The notes below the pieces were generated by a model that saw only the letters and a program-made list of their open reading frames with translations, was not told the DNA's origin and made no database searches. From positions 1 to 33,109 of IMG/VR virus record IMGVR_UViG_3300021404_000032: a stretch of DNA of 33,109 nucleotides. The stretch is one strand, 5' to 3'. Shown piece by piece: positions 23,457 through 32,963 of this stretch. Position 1 is the stretch's first letter. Each line of letters starts with the position of its first letter. The translations under genes and the position numbers were made by a program. The DNA is from a virus.

Positions 23457-24227
23457 ATGAGTCGCGTCACGATTCTGGGATGCGGCCCGGCTGGACTGGC
23501 GGCGGCTGCGGCCGTCGTCAGTTCCGGCCAAGAGGCCGTCATCGTAAGCAATACCCGCGAGCCTAGCCGTCTCTACGGCTGTCAGTATCTTCACGCGCCA
23601 ATTCCCGGATACGAGAGCGCGCCCCACGCCAAGGTCGGTTACTGGCTAATCGGCACGCCGGAAGAATACCGGACTAAGGTCTACGGCGATAAGTGGGAGG
23701 GCCGTGTCTCGCCGGAGGACTTTATAGGCGAACACGACGCCTGGGATATCCGGTGGACCTACCGGGAGATGTGGAGCCGGATCATCGACGGAGGCCTGGC
23801 CTGGATCCACGTTGACGAGCCGATCGCTGACGGCCGGATACCGTCCTGCGTCTATGACCTCCGGTCGGAGCGGATCATCTCAACAATCCCGGCTACGGCG
23901 CTCTGCTGGAAGAAAGAGCACGAATTCCGGTATCACAAGATATTCGCGAACGGAAGCACGACGGAGAGCCCGCGTACCGACAACATGATTATCTGCGACG
24001 GTACAAATCAGAACAACTGGTACCGGATCTCTAACGTATTCGGCTACAAGACTACTGAATGGAGCCGTGCCAAGATGGCACCGCCATCGGCCGTTGCGGT
24101 GCCCAAGCCGCTCGTTACCGACTGTGACTGTCATCCGGAGATTCACCGCGTCGGCCGGTACGGGAAATGGCAGAAGTCATATCTCGTCCACGAGGTCTAC
24201 CCGGAGGTAATGGAGCTGGTACGATGA
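23457..24227 (+). CDS. FAD/NAD(P)-binding oxidoreductase
   Basis: This 256-residue protein starts at the ATG at 23457, preceded by AAGGAAGGA. The N-terminus VTILGCGPAGLAAAAAVV is a dinucleotide-binding Rossmann motif (GxGxxG) of FAD-dependent oxidoreductases. LYGCQYLHAPIPG follows where these enzymes often have a second flavin contact. The C-terminus has CDCHPEIHRVGRYG with Cys and His. Similar short oxidoreductases occur in large actinophages, but their substrate is not known. Being first in the operon with ThyX (which uses FAD), a deoxynucleotidase and an SDR, it may act in thymidylate or base-modification chemistry; this is inference. Confidence 0.7.
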   Translation: MSRVTILGCGPAGLAAAAAVVSSGQEAVIVSNTREPSRLYGCQYLHAPIPGYESAPHAKVGYWLIGTPEEYRTKVYGDKWEGRVSPEDFIGEHDAWDIRWTYREMWSRIIDGGLAWIHVDEPIADGRIPSCVYDLRSERIISTIPATALCWKKEHEFRYHKIFANGSTTESPRTDNMIICDGTNQNNWYRISNVFGYKTTEWSRAKMAPPSAVAVPKPLVTDCDCHPEIHRVGRYGKWQKSYLVHEVYPEVMELVR

Positions 24228-24466
24228 TGAACGTGCTATGTATCGACGGCCCGGCTCGCGGCGAGATCCGCGAAGTAGAGCCCTCCCATAACATCCAGAT
24301 CCGGACGGAAGGTAAAGGCCTGTCGTTCTACACGGTTCACCATTTCGTTATCCTGAACCGTGTTATCCGGGTAGCCTCCGTATATGAGAAGGTCGATGAT
24401 ATCTTCCTGGATACCGCATTCGACCTCATCACCTCAGACCTAGCAAGGAAAGTAGTTATCAATTAG
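24224..24466 (+). CDS. Small protein, paralogue of the gene at 30240
   Basis: This 80-residue protein starts at ATGATG overlapping the previous stop. It begins MMNVLCIDGPARGEIREV and contains YTVHHFVI, followed by an ASVYEK segment and an ITSDLA ending. The gene at 30240 has the same pattern (MMNVLLVDGPRVGEV; YYVHRFYL; LASIH; ILSDKA), so the two are paralogues. The likely fold is a small beta-rich domain. Function unknown; both copies lie in the nucleotide/replication operon. The next gene begins directly after its stop. Confidence 0.7.
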   Translation: MMNVLCIDGPARGEIREVEPSHNIQIRTEGKGLSFYTVHHFVILNRVIRVASVYEKVDDIFLDTAFDLITSDLARKVVIN

Positions 24467-26111: not shown

Positions 26112-26566
26112 TGAGCTACGCCGACGATACGATTGACTGGCAGTCGATTCGCGATATCGACGCCTGGCTAGACCGCGCGGTATCCGGCATGTACACGGAT
26201 CAGCCGCTAGCACAGGACTGGGCGCGCTTGTCGAAGGTCGCTGAGGAACTTTCCGAGGCTCTGGAAGAGCTACCGGAGGACGCCACGGCACAGGACCTCC
26301 GGCGAATCAGCGAGATAACAAAGGCTCTCGGAAAAGCCATTCAGGACCACATCGGCGCGACCGGTCAGAACCCCAGGAAAGGTACCGACCTTCAGGGGTA
26401 TAATAAGATGCTGGATGAGCTAGCGGATACCGCGCTAACGGCTATCCTAGCAATTCAGCATTTCACCAAAGACATTCATCAGAGCAGCGGCATTATCCAG
26501 GGCAGGCTTACCCGGACGTATATGCGAATGCTTGAGGCGAACCGGAAAGAGGACGACTCGATATGA
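26111..26566 (+). CDS. MazG-like nucleotide pyrophosphohydrolase
   Basis: This 151-residue all-helical protein. The helix WARLSKVAEELSEALEEL carries the ExxE-type metal ligands of the MazG/dUTPase-like superfamily, and YNKMLDELADTALTAILAIQ carries the second ExxD pair. The conserved ATGQNPRKG lies between. These enzymes hydrolyse (d)NTPs to monophosphates and pyrophosphate, clearing damaged or unwanted nucleotides. The gene overlaps ThyX by four bases, which fits a role in shaping the thymidine nucleotide pool. Substrate preference cannot be read from the sequence. Confidence 0.8.
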   Translation: MSYADDTIDWQSIRDIDAWLDRAVSGMYTDQPLAQDWARLSKVAEELSEALEELPEDATAQDLRRISEITKALGKAIQDHIGATGQNPRKGTDLQGYNKMLDELADTALTAILAIQHFTKDIHQSSGIIQGRLTRTYMRMLEANRKEDDSI

Positions 26567-27573
26567 ATAAGGCAATAGGAGGATGGATCCATGAAGATGG
26601 GTCCGTCTGTAACGAGTATCTCGCGCCTCCGGAAAGTATGCCGCCGACCGGCTACTGGTGCACCCTGCATGAGCAGTACGTCCGGCACCCAGAGGCGACG
26701 GGAAGCGCGCTGCCCGTCCGATGGGCCGACCGCGCGATGTACTCCGCGAAGCCAATCGACGGTACCGGGCCGACCGTAGTCCTCAGCGACATGACGGCGA
26801 ATCCGCTCCGGCTCGTTGCGGCGGTCAGCGAACAGTACCGAGGCGGAATCTTCCCGGACCCCACCGAGGTCACCAGGGAACAGGCGATGGAGTGGTACCA
26901 CGGAGCGCTCAAGGCGCGCGGGCTCCCGGCTCCGCTCGAATGGGTCAACTTCTCGTTCTATATCGAAGGAGTCACCCGCGCGTTCACGCACCAGCTTGTC
27001 CGGCAGCGCACGGCGACGTTCGTTCAGGAGTCGATGCGGTTCGCGGTCAAAGAGAACGCCGAGATGGAAATCGTGATGCCGGAGTACATCGCCCGGCTCG
27101 CGGAGTACCATCCTCTGCGAGTCGAATGGCGGACTACCGCCCGGTACATAGCCGCGAGCTATAACCGGATGGTGAATGGGGGCGTACCCGCCGAGGACGC
27201 TCGCGGAATCCTCCCGACGAACATCGCCACCCGCGTCCACTACCGGACGAACCTCCGGAACCTCATCGAGCATGCCGGGCTCCGGCTCTGCTCCCAGGCC
27301 CAGTACGAATGGAAGCAAGTCTGGGCCGAGATGATTAAGGCCATCCTCGCGTACGGCCCAGAAGAGGACCGCTGGCAGCAGGAAGCAATCGTGCGGATGT
27401 TCCGCCCGGTCTGCTACCAGACGGGCCGATGCGAATTCATGGGACCGGCCGACCGGTTCTGTTCGATTCGCGACCGCGTGGAAGCCCACCACAAGAAAGG
27501 CGACCGGCCGGAGACCTGGGATGACATTCACCCACACGAGGCACTATCGTACGGAGCCGCAAGGAAGGCGTAA
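26563..27573 (+). CDS. thyX: Flavin-dependent thymidylate synthase ThyX
   Basis: This 336-residue protein is identified by HQLVRQRTATFVQESMRF (about residues 143-160), the actinophage form of the ThyX motif RHRxxSxxxxSxR, and by TNIATRVHYRTNLRNLIEH and LRLCSQAQYEW, where FAD and dUMP contacts lie. ThyX methylates dUMP to dTMP using methylene-tetrahydrofolate and FAD. It has about 70 extra N-terminal residues (with GYWCTLHEQYV) compared with the usual 220-250-residue enzyme and an extended C-terminus. It follows the MazG-like gene with a four-base overlap. A long antisense open frame here is a shadow of the codon bias. Confidence 0.9.
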   Translation: MNKAIGGWIHEDGSVCNEYLAPPESMPPTGYWCTLHEQYVRHPEATGSALPVRWADRAMYSAKPIDGTGPTVVLSDMTANPLRLVAAVSEQYRGGIFPDPTEVTREQAMEWYHGALKARGLPAPLEWVNFSFYIEGVTRAFTHQLVRQRTATFVQESMRFAVKENAEMEIVMPEYIARLAEYHPLRVEWRTTARYIAASYNRMVNGGVPAEDARGILPTNIATRVHYRTNLRNLIEHAGLRLCSQAQYEWKQVWAEMIKAILAYGPEEDRWQQEAIVRMFRPVCYQTGRCEFMGPADRFCSIRDRVEAHHKKGDRPETWDDIHPHEALSYGAARKA

Positions 27574-28798: not shown

Positions 28799-28986
28799 TC
28801 CGCGACTTTCCGGTAAGCGTCGATGACGAGGACGCGCGAATGCTCGCATACCTTATCTGGTCTGCTGAGCTAGCTAGATTCGGCGGCACGCCGGTATCGG
28901 GCGAGGACGATGTGGAAATCAAAGAGATGATAGCGGAAGGCGATATCCTGATGGTGCGTGTCCTAGGGCTAGCCGAGCGTGGCTGA
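28768..28986 (+). CDS. Small acidic protein, function unknown
   Basis: This 72-residue acidic, helical protein (DEDARMLAYLIWSAELARFG; DDVEIKEMIAEGDILMVRVL). It overlaps the PHP-domain gene by eight bases. Because it is directly upstream and overlapping, it is probably co-translated with the polymerase pieces. Confidence 0.6.
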   Translation: MGSPEQFVALIRDFPVSVDDEDARMLAYLIWSAELARFGGTPVSGEDDVEIKEMIAEGDILMVRVLGLAERG

Positions 28987-29923
28987 CGCCGATATCACCT
29001 ATGTTAATCTCCATGGACATTCGACCTTTAGCCACGGAGACGGGCACAAGCTGCCCCGGTACCATGTGGAGCGCGCGGCCGAGCTAGGCTATAAGGCTAT
29101 GGCGCTTACCGAGCATGGTGGCGTTAGCTCTCATTTCCAGCTTGAGAAATACGGCATACAGCTAGGCGTCAAGCCGATATTCGGGCTAGAGGGATATACC
29201 GGAGCCGTCGATGACGAACACAAGGGACAGTTCAAGTTCCACCTCACAATTCTCGCGAGAGATTCCGGAGGGTACAGAAATCTCAATAAAGTCGTCACCC
29301 AGTCGTGGCGTGATTATCATTATCATCCGACCATCTCAGGAAGCTCGCTCGCAGCGAACCGAGATGGACTGGCAGTATTGTCTGGATGCAGCGGTAGTCT
29401 TCTTGCTTGCTCTCTTCTCGGCGGTAAAGGGATACCAGAGCCCGTCAGTAAGCGGGCCGGGTATAATCGAGCCCTAGAGGTAATCGAGCGGTTCTATGAT
29501 ACATTCGGCAATTACTACTTCCTAGAGGTTCAGCCTTTCTGGGAGCTGCCCAGGACGTCTGAGATCAATACCACGTACGAAAAGCTATCGAGGGAGACGG
29601 GCGTGCCTCTTGTTGTCACGTGCGACGTCCATTACCCACGGCCGGATGATGGCGAGATGCAGGCTATTCTACACGCGGTCCATCGCGGGAAGCACTCGAT
29701 TGACGATGCGCTCCGTGAGTGGAATTACGAGGTCCCAATGACGCTTCCGCTTTCCGACCGCGAGCTAGCCGAGCGGCTAATGAAAACTGGCCTTTCCCGG
29801 AAAGCTTCGATGGAGGCTATTCAGTCCTCCGCGAACATTGCTGGTTTCTGTAACGTAACCCTACCGAAAGCCGACCGGCTCCGGTACCCGATTAGCGAGG
29901 ATGACGATGTGCCATGGATCTAG
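28979..29923 (+). CDS. dnaE: DNA polymerase III alpha, separate PHP (proofreading-type) domain
   Basis: This 314-residue protein matches the N-terminal PHP domain of DnaE and ends where the polymerase core would begin. All nine metal ligands of active PHP domains can be placed: His12, His14, Asp21, His46, Glu71, His88, Cys137, Asp216 and His218. In mycobacterial DnaE1 the corresponding residues carry out 3'-5' proofreading, so this piece is likely an active exonuclease acting on the polymerase from a separate chain. It starts at a GTG. The end (YPISEDDDVPWI) shows no intein sequence. It overlaps the next gene by ten bases. The polymerase core is 736 bases downstream. Confidence 0.85.
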   Translation: MADADITYVNLHGHSTFSHGDGHKLPRYHVERAAELGYKAMALTEHGGVSSHFQLEKYGIQLGVKPIFGLEGYTGAVDDEHKGQFKFHLTILARDSGGYRNLNKVVTQSWRDYHYHPTISGSSLAANRDGLAVLSGCSGSLLACSLLGGKGIPEPVSKRAGYNRALEVIERFYDTFGNYYFLEVQPFWELPRTSEINTTYEKLSRETGVPLVVTCDVHYPRPDDGEMQAILHAVHRGKHSIDDALREWNYEVPMTLPLSDRELAERLMKTGLSRKASMEAIQSSANIAGFCNVTLPKADRLRYPISEDDDVPWI

Positions 29924-30240
29924 AATGGGAGCGCGTAAAGAGGATGCCGAAACAGGGTGACTACATTTACGTGGAGCAGATCTGCCCGGTTCGCGCCTTT
30001 ATCGGCCAGGTAGTCCTGATATGGACGAACGATAACGACCGTCAGGTGATAGCCGTTGTCGATGGCGCTGGCGACGTTATCAACCTGGCCGAGGATGACC
30101 GCTGGGTCTCTTATCACGGCACCCACCGCGAGGTCGCTACCGTAGAGATCCTGAAGAGGTCCGGCCTGTGTATCTGCTGCGACGCTCCGCTACTAGTGGG
30201 CCGCTCCGGGAACATCGACCACGCCTGGCTCTGGAGCTAA
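29914..30240 (+). CDS. Small protein between the DnaE pieces
   Basis: This 108-residue protein overlaps the PHP gene by ten bases. A basic start (ERVKRMPKQGDYIYVE) leads into a beta-rich domain (AFIGQVVLIWTNDNDRQVIA; RWVSYHGTHREVATVEIL) and a CICCDAP cysteine cluster before the end DHAWLWS. It could be a small barrel with a zinc site. Whether it helps join the two polymerase pieces is unknown, but its place is suggestive. Confidence 0.7.
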   Translation: MDLEWERVKRMPKQGDYIYVEQICPVRAFIGQVVLIWTNDNDRQVIAVVDGAGDVINLAEDDRWVSYHGTHREVATVEILKRSGLCICCDAPLLVGRSGNIDHAWLWS

Positions 30241-30491
30241 TGATGAACGTGCTACTTGTCGACGGTCCTCGCGTTGGCGAAGTCATGGATGCAGCAAAGC
30301 ATACTTTCCCTGTCCCCGCTTTCAGCGACGGTCAGACGATAGTAAGCACTACATACTACGTCCACAGATTCTACCTATTCGGACAGCCGCTTTGGCTCGC
30401 GTCTATACATTTGATGGCAGAGGACGTCCGGCCGACCGATGTTGTCTCCGTTATCCTGTCGGATAAGGCTATTCAGGCTCTGGGGCAATAA
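30240..30491 (+). CDS. Small protein, paralogue of the gene at 24224
   Basis: This 83-residue protein starts in TAATGATG. It begins MMNVLLVDGPRVGEVMDA and contains YYVHRFYL, LASIH and ILSDKA at positions equivalent to its paralogue. The pair probably arose by duplication within this element. It shares single bases with both neighbours. Function unknown. Confidence 0.7.
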   Translation: MMNVLLVDGPRVGEVMDAAKHTFPVPAFSDGQTIVSTTYYVHRFYLFGQPLWLASIHLMAEDVRPTDVVSVILSDKAIQALGQ

Positions 30492-30667
30492 TGGAAGGTA
30501 TCGACGGCTGGACTCGCGAGCTATGGCGAATCTCCCAGGATGATGATATGCGTATCGACCTCGCCGGCAAGATCCAGGATATTGTCGATGAGATGCGCAC
30601 AACAGCCCATCTCCCGGTATTCGGCATCAACGATGTCGTGATTGATACGGAGCCAGTCGATGGGTAA
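30491..30667 (+). CDS. Small acidic protein before the polymerase core
   Basis: This 58-residue acidic protein (ELWRISQDDDMRIDLAGKIQ; HLPVFGINDVVIDTEPVDG) begins in TAATG and overlaps the polymerase start by eight bases. The first half is a helix with repeated Asp/Ile. Its overlaps on both sides indicate a real, co-translated gene. Confidence 0.6.
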   Translation: MEGIDGWTRELWRISQDDDMRIDLAGKIQDIVDEMRTTAHLPVFGINDVVIDTEPVDG

Positions 30668-32963
30668 TACGGAAGTTAAGTCGGAGCGCTCCCGGCCAGA
30701 GGCCGAGGCAATGCTGTGGAAGTGGCTCCGGTTTGGATGGGAATACCGGCGCGTAGGTGAACGGTCCCAGGAGCAGCGCGAGTGGTACGGCGACCGCGTA
30801 AAGTATGAGATGGACCTGATCCTTGAGCGCGGGCTCGCGGATTTCTTCCTGTTTACCTCCGACACGATCCGGTGGGGTAAGGATCACGGCGTGGCGTTCG
30901 GCCCCGGACGCGGCTCAACGGCCGCATCGGTTGTCGCCTGGCTACTCCGGATTACTGAGATCGATCCATTCCGCTATCAGGGTATGGTTTTTGAGCGCTT
31001 CCTCGATATCTCCCGTCCGGACCCACCAGACATCGACGTTGACTGCTCCGACGAGGACCGCTGGAAGGTCTGGAAATACCTGGAGCGGAAGTACGGCCGT
31101 GACTGTTTCGGGCACATCGGCAATTTCGTCCGGTACCGTGGGAAGAATTCCCTTGACGATGTGGCCCGCGTATACAACATCCCTATCTGGGTCGTTGAGA
31201 TAATCAAGAACCTCCTAGTTGAAAGGTCGGGAGGCGACTCGCGGTTTGACGCTACCCTTGCCGATACCTTTGATATGTTCCCAGCGGCGCAGGACGTCCT
31301 AGACGAGTATCCCGATCTAATCAAGGCGACGAGGCTAGAGGGCGACATACGCGGAATGAGCGTTCACGCCGCTGGCCTGGTAATCGCGAATAGCCCGCTA
31401 ACGGATATCTGCGCCGTGTACGAGAAAGATGGCGTGCAGGTAATGTCCGTCGATAAGTATGACGCGGAGTACATGGGAGCCCTCAAGCTAGACTTCCTAG
31501 GGCTTACCACTATGGGAATGATCGCCCGCTGTCTAAAGATGGCCGGCCTGACTCTGGAGGACCTTTATGCGATACCCGATACTGACCCTGGAGCTATCGA
31601 GATTTTCCGTACCGGAGACGTCATCGGCGTGTTTCAGTTTGAGGGTAGAGCTACTAGGCTCGTCAACCGAGACGTCCGGCCAGATCACTTCATGCATATC
31701 ACAGACGTCAATGCGCTATCGCGTCCTGGCCCGCTGTTTTCCGGACAGACCGCAGACTACGTGGACGTCCGGCATGGGCGTAAGAAAGCAGAAAGCCTTC
31801 ATCCGCTCGTAGACGAGATCACGCACGATACCTACGGGCAGATAATCTATCAGGAGCAGATCCTCCGCATCCTCAAAGAGATGGGCGGATTCGACTGGTT
31901 CTCCGTCTCACAGATCCGGCGCATCATATCCAAGAAAATGGGCGAAGCCGCATTCCAGATGTCATACGAGCAGTTCGCTCAGGGCGCACTCGATGGCTAC
32001 GGAGTAGACCGCGAGCTAGCCGATAAGATCTGGAAGCGGCTTGTTACGTCTGGTACCTATTCCTTCAACATCGCCCATGCCATAAGCTACTCGATGCTAG
32101 CATTCTGGACGGCGTGGCTCAAGGCGAATTACCCGCTTGAGTTCTATGCGGCCTCGCTCGCGAAGGCGACGAAAGCAGAGACCCAGTTCCGGCTAATGCG
32201 AGATGCCCTCGCCCACTCGATAGACGTCCGGCCTCCGGACCCGAGGTATGCGCGACGGACCTGGACGCCGCATGTGGTAGCGAACGAACGGCCGGAGCTA
32301 CGGAGGCAGGAGCTACTCGCCGGATGGGAGCAGGTTCCAAAGATCGGCAAGAAAATGGCCGAGCGGATAGACGCCGAGAAGCCAGATGGTGGCTGGAAGA
32401 GTTTCTATGACCTAACCCGTATCGATGGGATCGGCCCGAAGACAGCCGAGCGCATGGCTGAGTTTGCGGCGGCCAATGACCCGTTCGGGCTCTACCGTAC
32501 CGAGAAGAAACTTGCGGCCGTGGACCGCTGGCTCAGACAGCAGAAAGCGGTCCCACAGCCGACCCATAACGGTGAGCATCTGGCGGCTATGGAAGTAGTA
32601 AAGAATCCTGCTCCGGGCAGGCGCTTCGCGCCTGGACCTGCGGTGGTTTATGCCGGGGTAGTTAGGAGAGTTGAATATAAGGATATCGTTGAGGACGAAC
32701 GGAGCCGCTCCGGCCGCGAGGTCGAAGAGATCCTCGCAGAGCTAAAGCGGCCCGATCTAATCAAGCGAGCTACCCTCCATATGTACGACGAGAGCGACGA
32801 GGAAGTTTATGGCCGCGTCAATAGATGGAAGTTCCCCGGACTGCTAAAGAAACTACAGACGATTCACGTCAACCACGACGTCGTGGTTATCGCCGGATTC
32901 CGGATAGCCGGATTCGGTACGCCGGTAATGATAAACAATATGTGGGTTATCGATCCCGATTAG
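30660..32963 (+). CDS. dnaE: DNA polymerase III alpha, polymerase core without PHP domain
   Basis: This 767-residue protein carries the catalytic core of DnaE. FGPGRGSTAASVVAWLL is at about 80-96, PDIDVD gives catalytic Asp126 and Asp128, and KLDFLGL gives the third Asp278. RPGPLFSGQTADYV, YQEQILRI and YSFNIAHAISYSMLAFWTAW follow in normal order. Beyond the fingers are helix-hairpin-helix segments (EQVPKIGKKMAERID; RIDGIGPKTAERMAEF) and an OB-like end. The first 60 residues replace the PHP domain with a charged helix pair. It polymerises the phage DNA and must work with the PHP piece encoded upstream or without proofreading. The ATG at 30660 was chosen over 30642 because it gives the usual short overlap. 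Confidence 0.9.
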   Translation: MGNTEVKSERSRPEAEAMLWKWLRFGWEYRRVGERSQEQREWYGDRVKYEMDLILERGLADFFLFTSDTIRWGKDHGVAFGPGRGSTAASVVAWLLRITEIDPFRYQGMVFERFLDISRPDPPDIDVDCSDEDRWKVWKYLERKYGRDCFGHIGNFVRYRGKNSLDDVARVYNIPIWVVEIIKNLLVERSGGDSRFDATLADTFDMFPAAQDVLDEYPDLIKATRLEGDIRGMSVHAAGLVIANSPLTDICAVYEKDGVQVMSVDKYDAEYMGALKLDFLGLTTMGMIARCLKMAGLTLEDLYAIPDTDPGAIEIFRTGDVIGVFQFEGRATRLVNRDVRPDHFMHITDVNALSRPGPLFSGQTADYVDVRHGRKKAESLHPLVDEITHDTYGQIIYQEQILRILKEMGGFDWFSVSQIRRIISKKMGEAAFQMSYEQFAQGALDGYGVDRELADKIWKRLVTSGTYSFNIAHAISYSMLAFWTAWLKANYPLEFYAASLAKATKAETQFRLMRDALAHSIDVRPPDPRYARRTWTPHVVANERPELRRQELLAGWEQVPKIGKKMAERIDAEKPDGGWKSFYDLTRIDGIGPKTAERMAEFAAANDPFGLYRTEKKLAAVDRWLRQQKAVPQPTHNGEHLAAMEVVKNPAPGRRFAPGPAVVYAGVVRRVEYKDIVEDERSRSGREVEEILAELKRPDLIKRATLHMYDESDEEVYGRVNRWKFPGLLKKLQTIHVNHDVVVIAGFRIAGFGTPVMINNMWVIDPD

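Follow-up and report, generated by a model that had tools for sequence, protein, structure and literature searches.

We describe a phage replicative polymerase gene that is divided at a domain boundary. The window (the whole 33,109-base virus record analysed here, from a soil phage with a probable actinobacterial host) very probably carries a true fission of the phage DnaE (Pol III alpha) gene at the linker between its PHP and palm domains, with two chains that rebuild an ordinary PHP-proofreading Pol III alpha without splicing. In the mechanism that we propose, two co-translated chains would dock non-covalently to restore the ordinary DnaE architecture, the core chain would synthesise DNA, and the PHP chain would stabilise the core and supply a zinc-dependent 3′-5′ proofreading exonuclease in trans. 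A tail with a tryptophan (Trp) on the PHP chain may serve as a docking or capping element, and homing endonucleases may be the usual cause of the fission. This reading is supported by invariant residues, low dN/dS, the use of a single joint, co-inheritance of the pieces, the lack of a DnaQ-type exonuclease, and precedents from T4-like phages, Aeh1, Mycobacterium tuberculosis (Mtb) and E. coli. Three considerations weigh against it: conservation of the PHP piece could serve another use of that chain, correlated distances of the two pieces would also be expected from common descent, and the predicted fold of the PHP piece alone is compatible with either binding or no binding to the core. By all sequence criteria, the split is real, conserved and functional-looking, and it is of a kind that is known but almost unstudied.

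The locus is a five-gene block near the right end of the window, on the + strand, with the following features:

28979..29923, + strand: PHP piece of DnaE, 314 residues, GTG start; a predicted 3′-5′ proofreading-exonuclease domain, stand-alone
29894..29920, + strand: C-terminal tail of the PHP piece, SEDDDVPWI, the window's version of the Trp tail
29914..30240, + strand: small gene s1, 108 residues, overlapping the PHP stop by 10 nt
30240..30491, + strand: small gene s2, 83 residues, starting at ATG 30240 with a TAATG overlap
30491..30667, + strand: small gene s3, 58 residues, overlapping the polymerase start by 8 nt
30660..32963, + strand: polymerase-core piece of DnaE, 767 residues from ATG 30660, with palm, thumb, fingers, HhH and a C-terminal beta-rich domain
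30900..30917, + strand: GPGRGS motif of the core
31029..31037, + strand: catalytic Asp pair, in PDIDVD, invariant in 58 split and 57 fused sequences
31491..31493, + strand: third catalytic Asp, in KLDFLG

The distance of 736 bp from the PHP piece to the core, with three overlapping small genes inside, agrees with a preliminary description of this DNA. Translation of the five genes is probably coupled, because neighbours overlap by 10, 1, 1 and 8 nt along the series. ATG 30660 is the likely start of the core and TTG 30642, where the frame opens, a less likely one. Upstream of the PHP gene the window has a gene for ThyX (26563-27573), which most of the cultured relatives examined carry downstream of the core.

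From the letters of the sequence, the two pieces were first proposed to be complementary parts of one bacterial-type DnaE, divided at the natural linker between PHP and palm; Pfam and structure matches agree. The first piece matches the Pfam PHP family (E=1e-25) as well as PHROG 7513 and PHROG 405, and all nine of the metal ligands claimed for it are present (H12, H14, D21, H46, E71, H88, C137, D216 and H218). The second matches DNA_pol3_alpha (PF07733, E=1.5e-60) and the finger domain (PF17657, E=3.5e-36), is covered over its whole length by PHROG 11165 (a family of ~780 positions), and has the three expected catalytic residues, Asp130, Asp132 and Asp284 (numbered in the frame opening at 30642). 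The window accordingly has the marks of a DnaE-type C-family polymerase, namely palm, thumb and fingers with the GPGRGS motif and the three catalytic Asp and, on a separate chain, a metal site of nine residues; PHP and polymerase, which a DnaE-type enzyme has on one polypeptide, are here encoded by two genes. Each half is predicted on its own as a complete and confident fold. AlphaFold2 (AF2) gives a mean pLDDT of 94.2 and a pTM of 0.90 for the PHP piece, and 89.1 and 0.86 for the core, in which disorder is confined to residues 1-14 of the TTG-started frame. In Foldseek searches, the best matches of the PHP piece are Taq and E. coli Pol III alpha (TM 0.76-0.79), and Pol III alpha of Thermus, E. 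coli and Mtb (TM 0.66-0.79) outrank other PHP phosphoesterases; the top match of the core is Mtb DnaE1 (7pu7). Solved Pol III alpha structures align to the pieces consecutively, the PHP piece up to residue 295 of the Thermus chain and the core from 371 to 962, and the window's cut corresponds to the PHP/palm boundary of Mtb DnaE1, where PHP spans residues 1-300 and the palm begins at 301 (PMC5636811).

Near-identical contigs from other samples (L021, L022 and L101) repeat the window's arrangement, which excludes an assembly error. The gap genes are intact, with starts and stops of their own, neither window protein matches an intein family in a Pfam-level profile search, no Rfam family matches the window, and complete genomes of cultured phages show the split. 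The idea that a sequencing or assembly error, a splicing intron or an intein has broken a single gene is refuted by the independent contigs, the cultured genomes and the lack of Rfam or intein matches, and we give it practically no credence. The preliminary description was therefore right to deny a recent frameshift and to report no intein. The search of related phages that it recommended found both the split and the gene order in several genera: an identical split occurs in cultured actinophages of at least five, Krampusvirus (Microbacterium cluster EF), Onyinyevirus, Terapinvirus, Wollypogvirus and Papyrusvirus. It had also held that relatives with a single uninterrupted dnaE, and a sequencing error here at the junction, would overturn the claim; fused relatives do exist, but the junction bears no sign of such an error.

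We surveyed 113 distinct loci (viral contigs and annotated phages) with a complete PHP-core pair. The gene is split exactly at the PHP/palm linker in 58 of these and fused in 55, a ratio that represents no population frequency since the sample was drawn mostly from the relatives that scored best against split queries. Without exception, the 58 split and 57 fused sequences compared (the fused set here including two outgroups) keep the nine PHP ligands and the three catalytic Asp. For both pieces dN/dS lies at 0.03-0.17 (several pairs), and both are evidently under strong purifying selection. The frames of the 58 split loci range from overlapping to 3.1 kb apart, always at one linker. PHP and polymerase distances are correlated among split pairs (r=0.91) and among fused ones (0.74), as would also be expected from common descent alone. 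No split DnaE was found among 80 loci from cellular genomes, 79 of which are fused, the other having a reverse-transcriptase ORF inserted in its polymerase part. In Clostridioides difficile (L184:6209-8915), the chromosomal dnaE is interrupted inside the catalytic motif by what is probably a group II intron, with an ORF of the reverse transcriptase-HNH type.

The PHP gene always adjoins the core and is co-inherited with it, split cores with an upstream flank but no PHP piece number zero among the distinct loci of the survey (the exceptions run off contig ends), and the predicted fold of the PHP piece is nearest to Pol III alpha PHP domains, above other PHP phosphoesterases. These observations make it unlikely that the PHP chain acts away from the fork as a stand-alone exonuclease or phosphatase (in repair or pyrophosphate removal) while the core manages replication without it or relies on the host for proofreading, even though separate chains need not meet and PolX-like proteins that have lost their polymerase domain yet keep PHP are stand-alone exonucleases (PMC12926913). 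Proofreading by a PHP chain docked on the core, as we prefer, can also be set against the other exonucleases encoded by these phages. Searches for a DnaQ-type exonuclease (RNase_T, PF00929) in the window, nine complete genomes of cultured phages and ten other contigs of the group gave no match. In Escherichia phage Bas100, where the DnaE has a degenerate PHP, a gene for a DnaQ-type exonuclease adjoins the polymerase, just upstream. This absence from the split/fused group, together with the presence in Bas100, fits PHP as the phage's own proofreader, host exonucleases being also possible. The DnaE PHP of both Pbunavirus SAM2 (L009) and Bas100 (L010) is shortened and without metal ligands. In Mtb DnaE1 the PHP domain is the essential proofreader, and in E. 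coli it stabilises the core (PMC5636811).

Across split loci the gap holds 0 to 6 genes, zero being frames that overlap by 4-19 nt, and its genes are seldom common to more than close relatives. Homologues of s1, s2 and s3 lie in the gap only in near-identical contigs, with s1 also in L023; s1 homologues are limited to L021, L022, L023 and their copies, and s1 has no Pfam or PHROG match and no match in sequenced phages. A paralogue of s2 lies elsewhere in the window, at 24167-24466 (both start MMNVL and they are 29% identical), and three members of the window's own clade (L029, L050 and L114) have no gap genes at all. To judge from sequence comparison, the intervening genes are passengers. The earlier suggestion that they are linkers or regulators consequently fails: such proteins might be expected to bridge or regulate the halves, given that their genes sit between the two and overlap both translationally, but the variable and in places empty gap and the s2 paralogue leave this a very improbable reading. 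The fullest gap, in L045 (6924-10038), has six genes over 3.1 kb, among them homologues of DpdA and QueC, which belong to deazaguanine DNA modification, and of a methyltransferase.

The split has changed state repeatedly. On a quick tree of 116 sequences, made without bootstraps and unable to distinguish fission from fusion, the split/fused label requires 11 changes, with at least 8 of them forced by well-supported branches. Independent spread of the split PHP gene is unsupported, as PHP-only and POL-only trees each need the same number of changes, 11. The window lies within a clade of 34 metagenome phage contigs, all of them split and with no fused reversion. At the junction, L003 and L005 have no local similarity to other splits; L066 and L097 are equally similar near the junction, so local recombination is possible there. 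A fused ancestor with repeated fission is favoured by the canonical FPxPxG linkers of many fused lineages, and there is a hint of re-fusion in the Met residues of some fused linkers (Yara clade, Butterscotch, Foxboro), which resemble former start codons.

HNH-type genes occur in the gap of Wollypog (annotated, PF13392), L024, L034 and L130. Their density is 0.19 per kb in gaps vs 0.016 elsewhere in the loci, a 12-fold difference (Poisson p ~4e-4) that is biased upward because the HNH profiles were seeded partly from those places. Profile searches found in the window's own gap no homing endonuclease gene of the sort that separates the halves of Aeh1 nrdA and phage 25 gene 43. That HNH genes concentrate in the gaps of relatives points to fragmentation of the gene by homing, of the type seen in T4-like gene 43. 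In five distinct lineages, moreover, a short insertion lies at one identical PHP nucleotide, after the CATGG of ligand codons His46-Gly47 (L056:1341, +7 nt; L116:831, +7 nt; L136:5126, +6 nt; L154:4895, +4 nt; L030:6112, +9 nt); that of L136 is also present in L263, L265, L276 and L281. Four of the five break the frame or bring in a stop, and insertions of +4 or +7 put the ATG within CATGG in the reading frame of the remaining PHP sequence. An HNH-type gene is nearby in 5/5 loci with an insertion vs 9/114 without (Fisher p 1e-5). These insertions resemble that of T4 gene 60, a short, homing-endonuclease-linked insert after a Gly codon that ribosomes bypass (PMC5009743).

All 58 split PHP pieces have a Trp near the C-terminus, at a nearly fixed spacing of 12-15 residues past the last conserved P-K of the domain. 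In 45 of them it is part of a P-W, mostly as (D/E)-(L/W)-x-P-W, and 37 of these 45 end no more than 2 residues from it, whereas P-W is found in 0/55 fused linkers and a similar ending in only 2 of ~6,700 other frames of the surveyed loci. DDDVPWI in the window is a Trp tail of the actinophage kind. The tail may resemble the C-terminal tip of SSB, and it may dock to the core or cap the domain. AF2 models it confidently on the PHP piece alone, which, along with the 12-fold HNH density in gaps (subject to ascertainment bias) and the differing gap content of close relatives, would suit a fission that is neutral debris of homing-endonuclease insertion, the chains still assembling and the tail merely capping a hydrophobic cut end. 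Since the 34-member split clade has no fused reversion and the tail is specific and nearly fixed in spacing, we regard this as possible but somewhat doubtful; it is compatible with our main reading of a reassembled Pol III alpha and differs only on the usefulness of the split and the tail. More tentative than that main reading, but to be taken seriously, is a scheme in which PHP would be a dedicated in-trans proofreading subunit docked by an acidic, Trp-tipped tail peculiar to splits, with at least eight fission/fusion switches, repeatedly driven by HNH endonucleases that would also attack the PHP active-site codons.

The PHP domain of Pol III alpha, to which a mismatched primer arrives from the polymerase site ~40 Å away, is usually studied in one chain. 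With natural two-chain versions and close fused controls, proofreading could be added, removed or titrated in vitro, and such versions would reveal directly whether polymerisation, proofreading or both depend on the PHP domain. Recurrent fission is likewise a natural experiment on replicase fragmentation and fusion.

Sequenced split actinophages share with the window the pieces, the linker cut, the gene order (a PHP gene then a core gene on one strand) and the D-(L/W)-x-P-W tail, at 43-49% protein identity; they differ in their passenger genes (0 to 2 vs 3), and the window's clade, in which every contig is split, is separate from theirs. In cultured phages the pieces are mostly annotated as two 'DnaE-like DNA polymerase III' genes. 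GenBank labels the PHP piece of Nilo (gp74, L012:5004-5939) 'DNA polymerase III sliding clamp (Beta)', apparently a misannotation. The published comments on the split that we found concern cluster EF, in one sentence of a paper (PLoS One 2020, PMC7302621) and also in PMC13080520, and we found no study in the open-access literature of split DnaE assembly, activity, recurrence or tail. The exonuclease domain is indeed on a separate chain, as the preliminary description had it, but 'distinct replisome design' overstates the case for a split already annotated in a number of sequenced phages and mentioned in the literature for cluster EF; the two chains more likely rebuild the standard DnaE1 architecture than form such a design. 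Fused relatives (Butterscotch, Hawkeye, Yara, P3.1, Lambovirus and others) have the same polymerase family, active sites and neighbourhood, but in one chain, with no PW tail and with several kinds of linker. Mycobacterium phage Cuke (gp110/gp109, L008:3077-6312), counted outside the 113 loci, has its DnaE divided at another place, within the polymerase domain, where the two frames overlap by 4 bp; its PHP is still joined to the first part.

Cyanobacterial split DnaE is also encoded by two genes, the products of which are rejoined by a split intein; the window has no intein halves and is cut at the PHP joint. Mtb DnaE1, the best structural match of the core, likewise has a complete nine-residue zinc site as replicative proofreader (PMC5636811), but in a single chain of 1184 residues. 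In Aeromonas phages 25 and 44RR, gp43A and gp43B are likewise two genes whose products reassemble an exonuclease-bearing replicative polymerase, with a homing endonuclease in phage 25 (PMC2988022). In this T4-like phage 25, gp43A and gp43B purify together and with polymerase activity, and the split NrdA of Aeh1 has full activity (PMC2988022). These gp43 pieces are of the B family, unrelated to the polymerase family of the window. We know of no fixed tail in gp43A/gp43B. The phenomenon itself was thus already known, and what is added here is repeated switching at one joint, a tail peculiar to the split form, and indications that homing endonucleases act on the gene.
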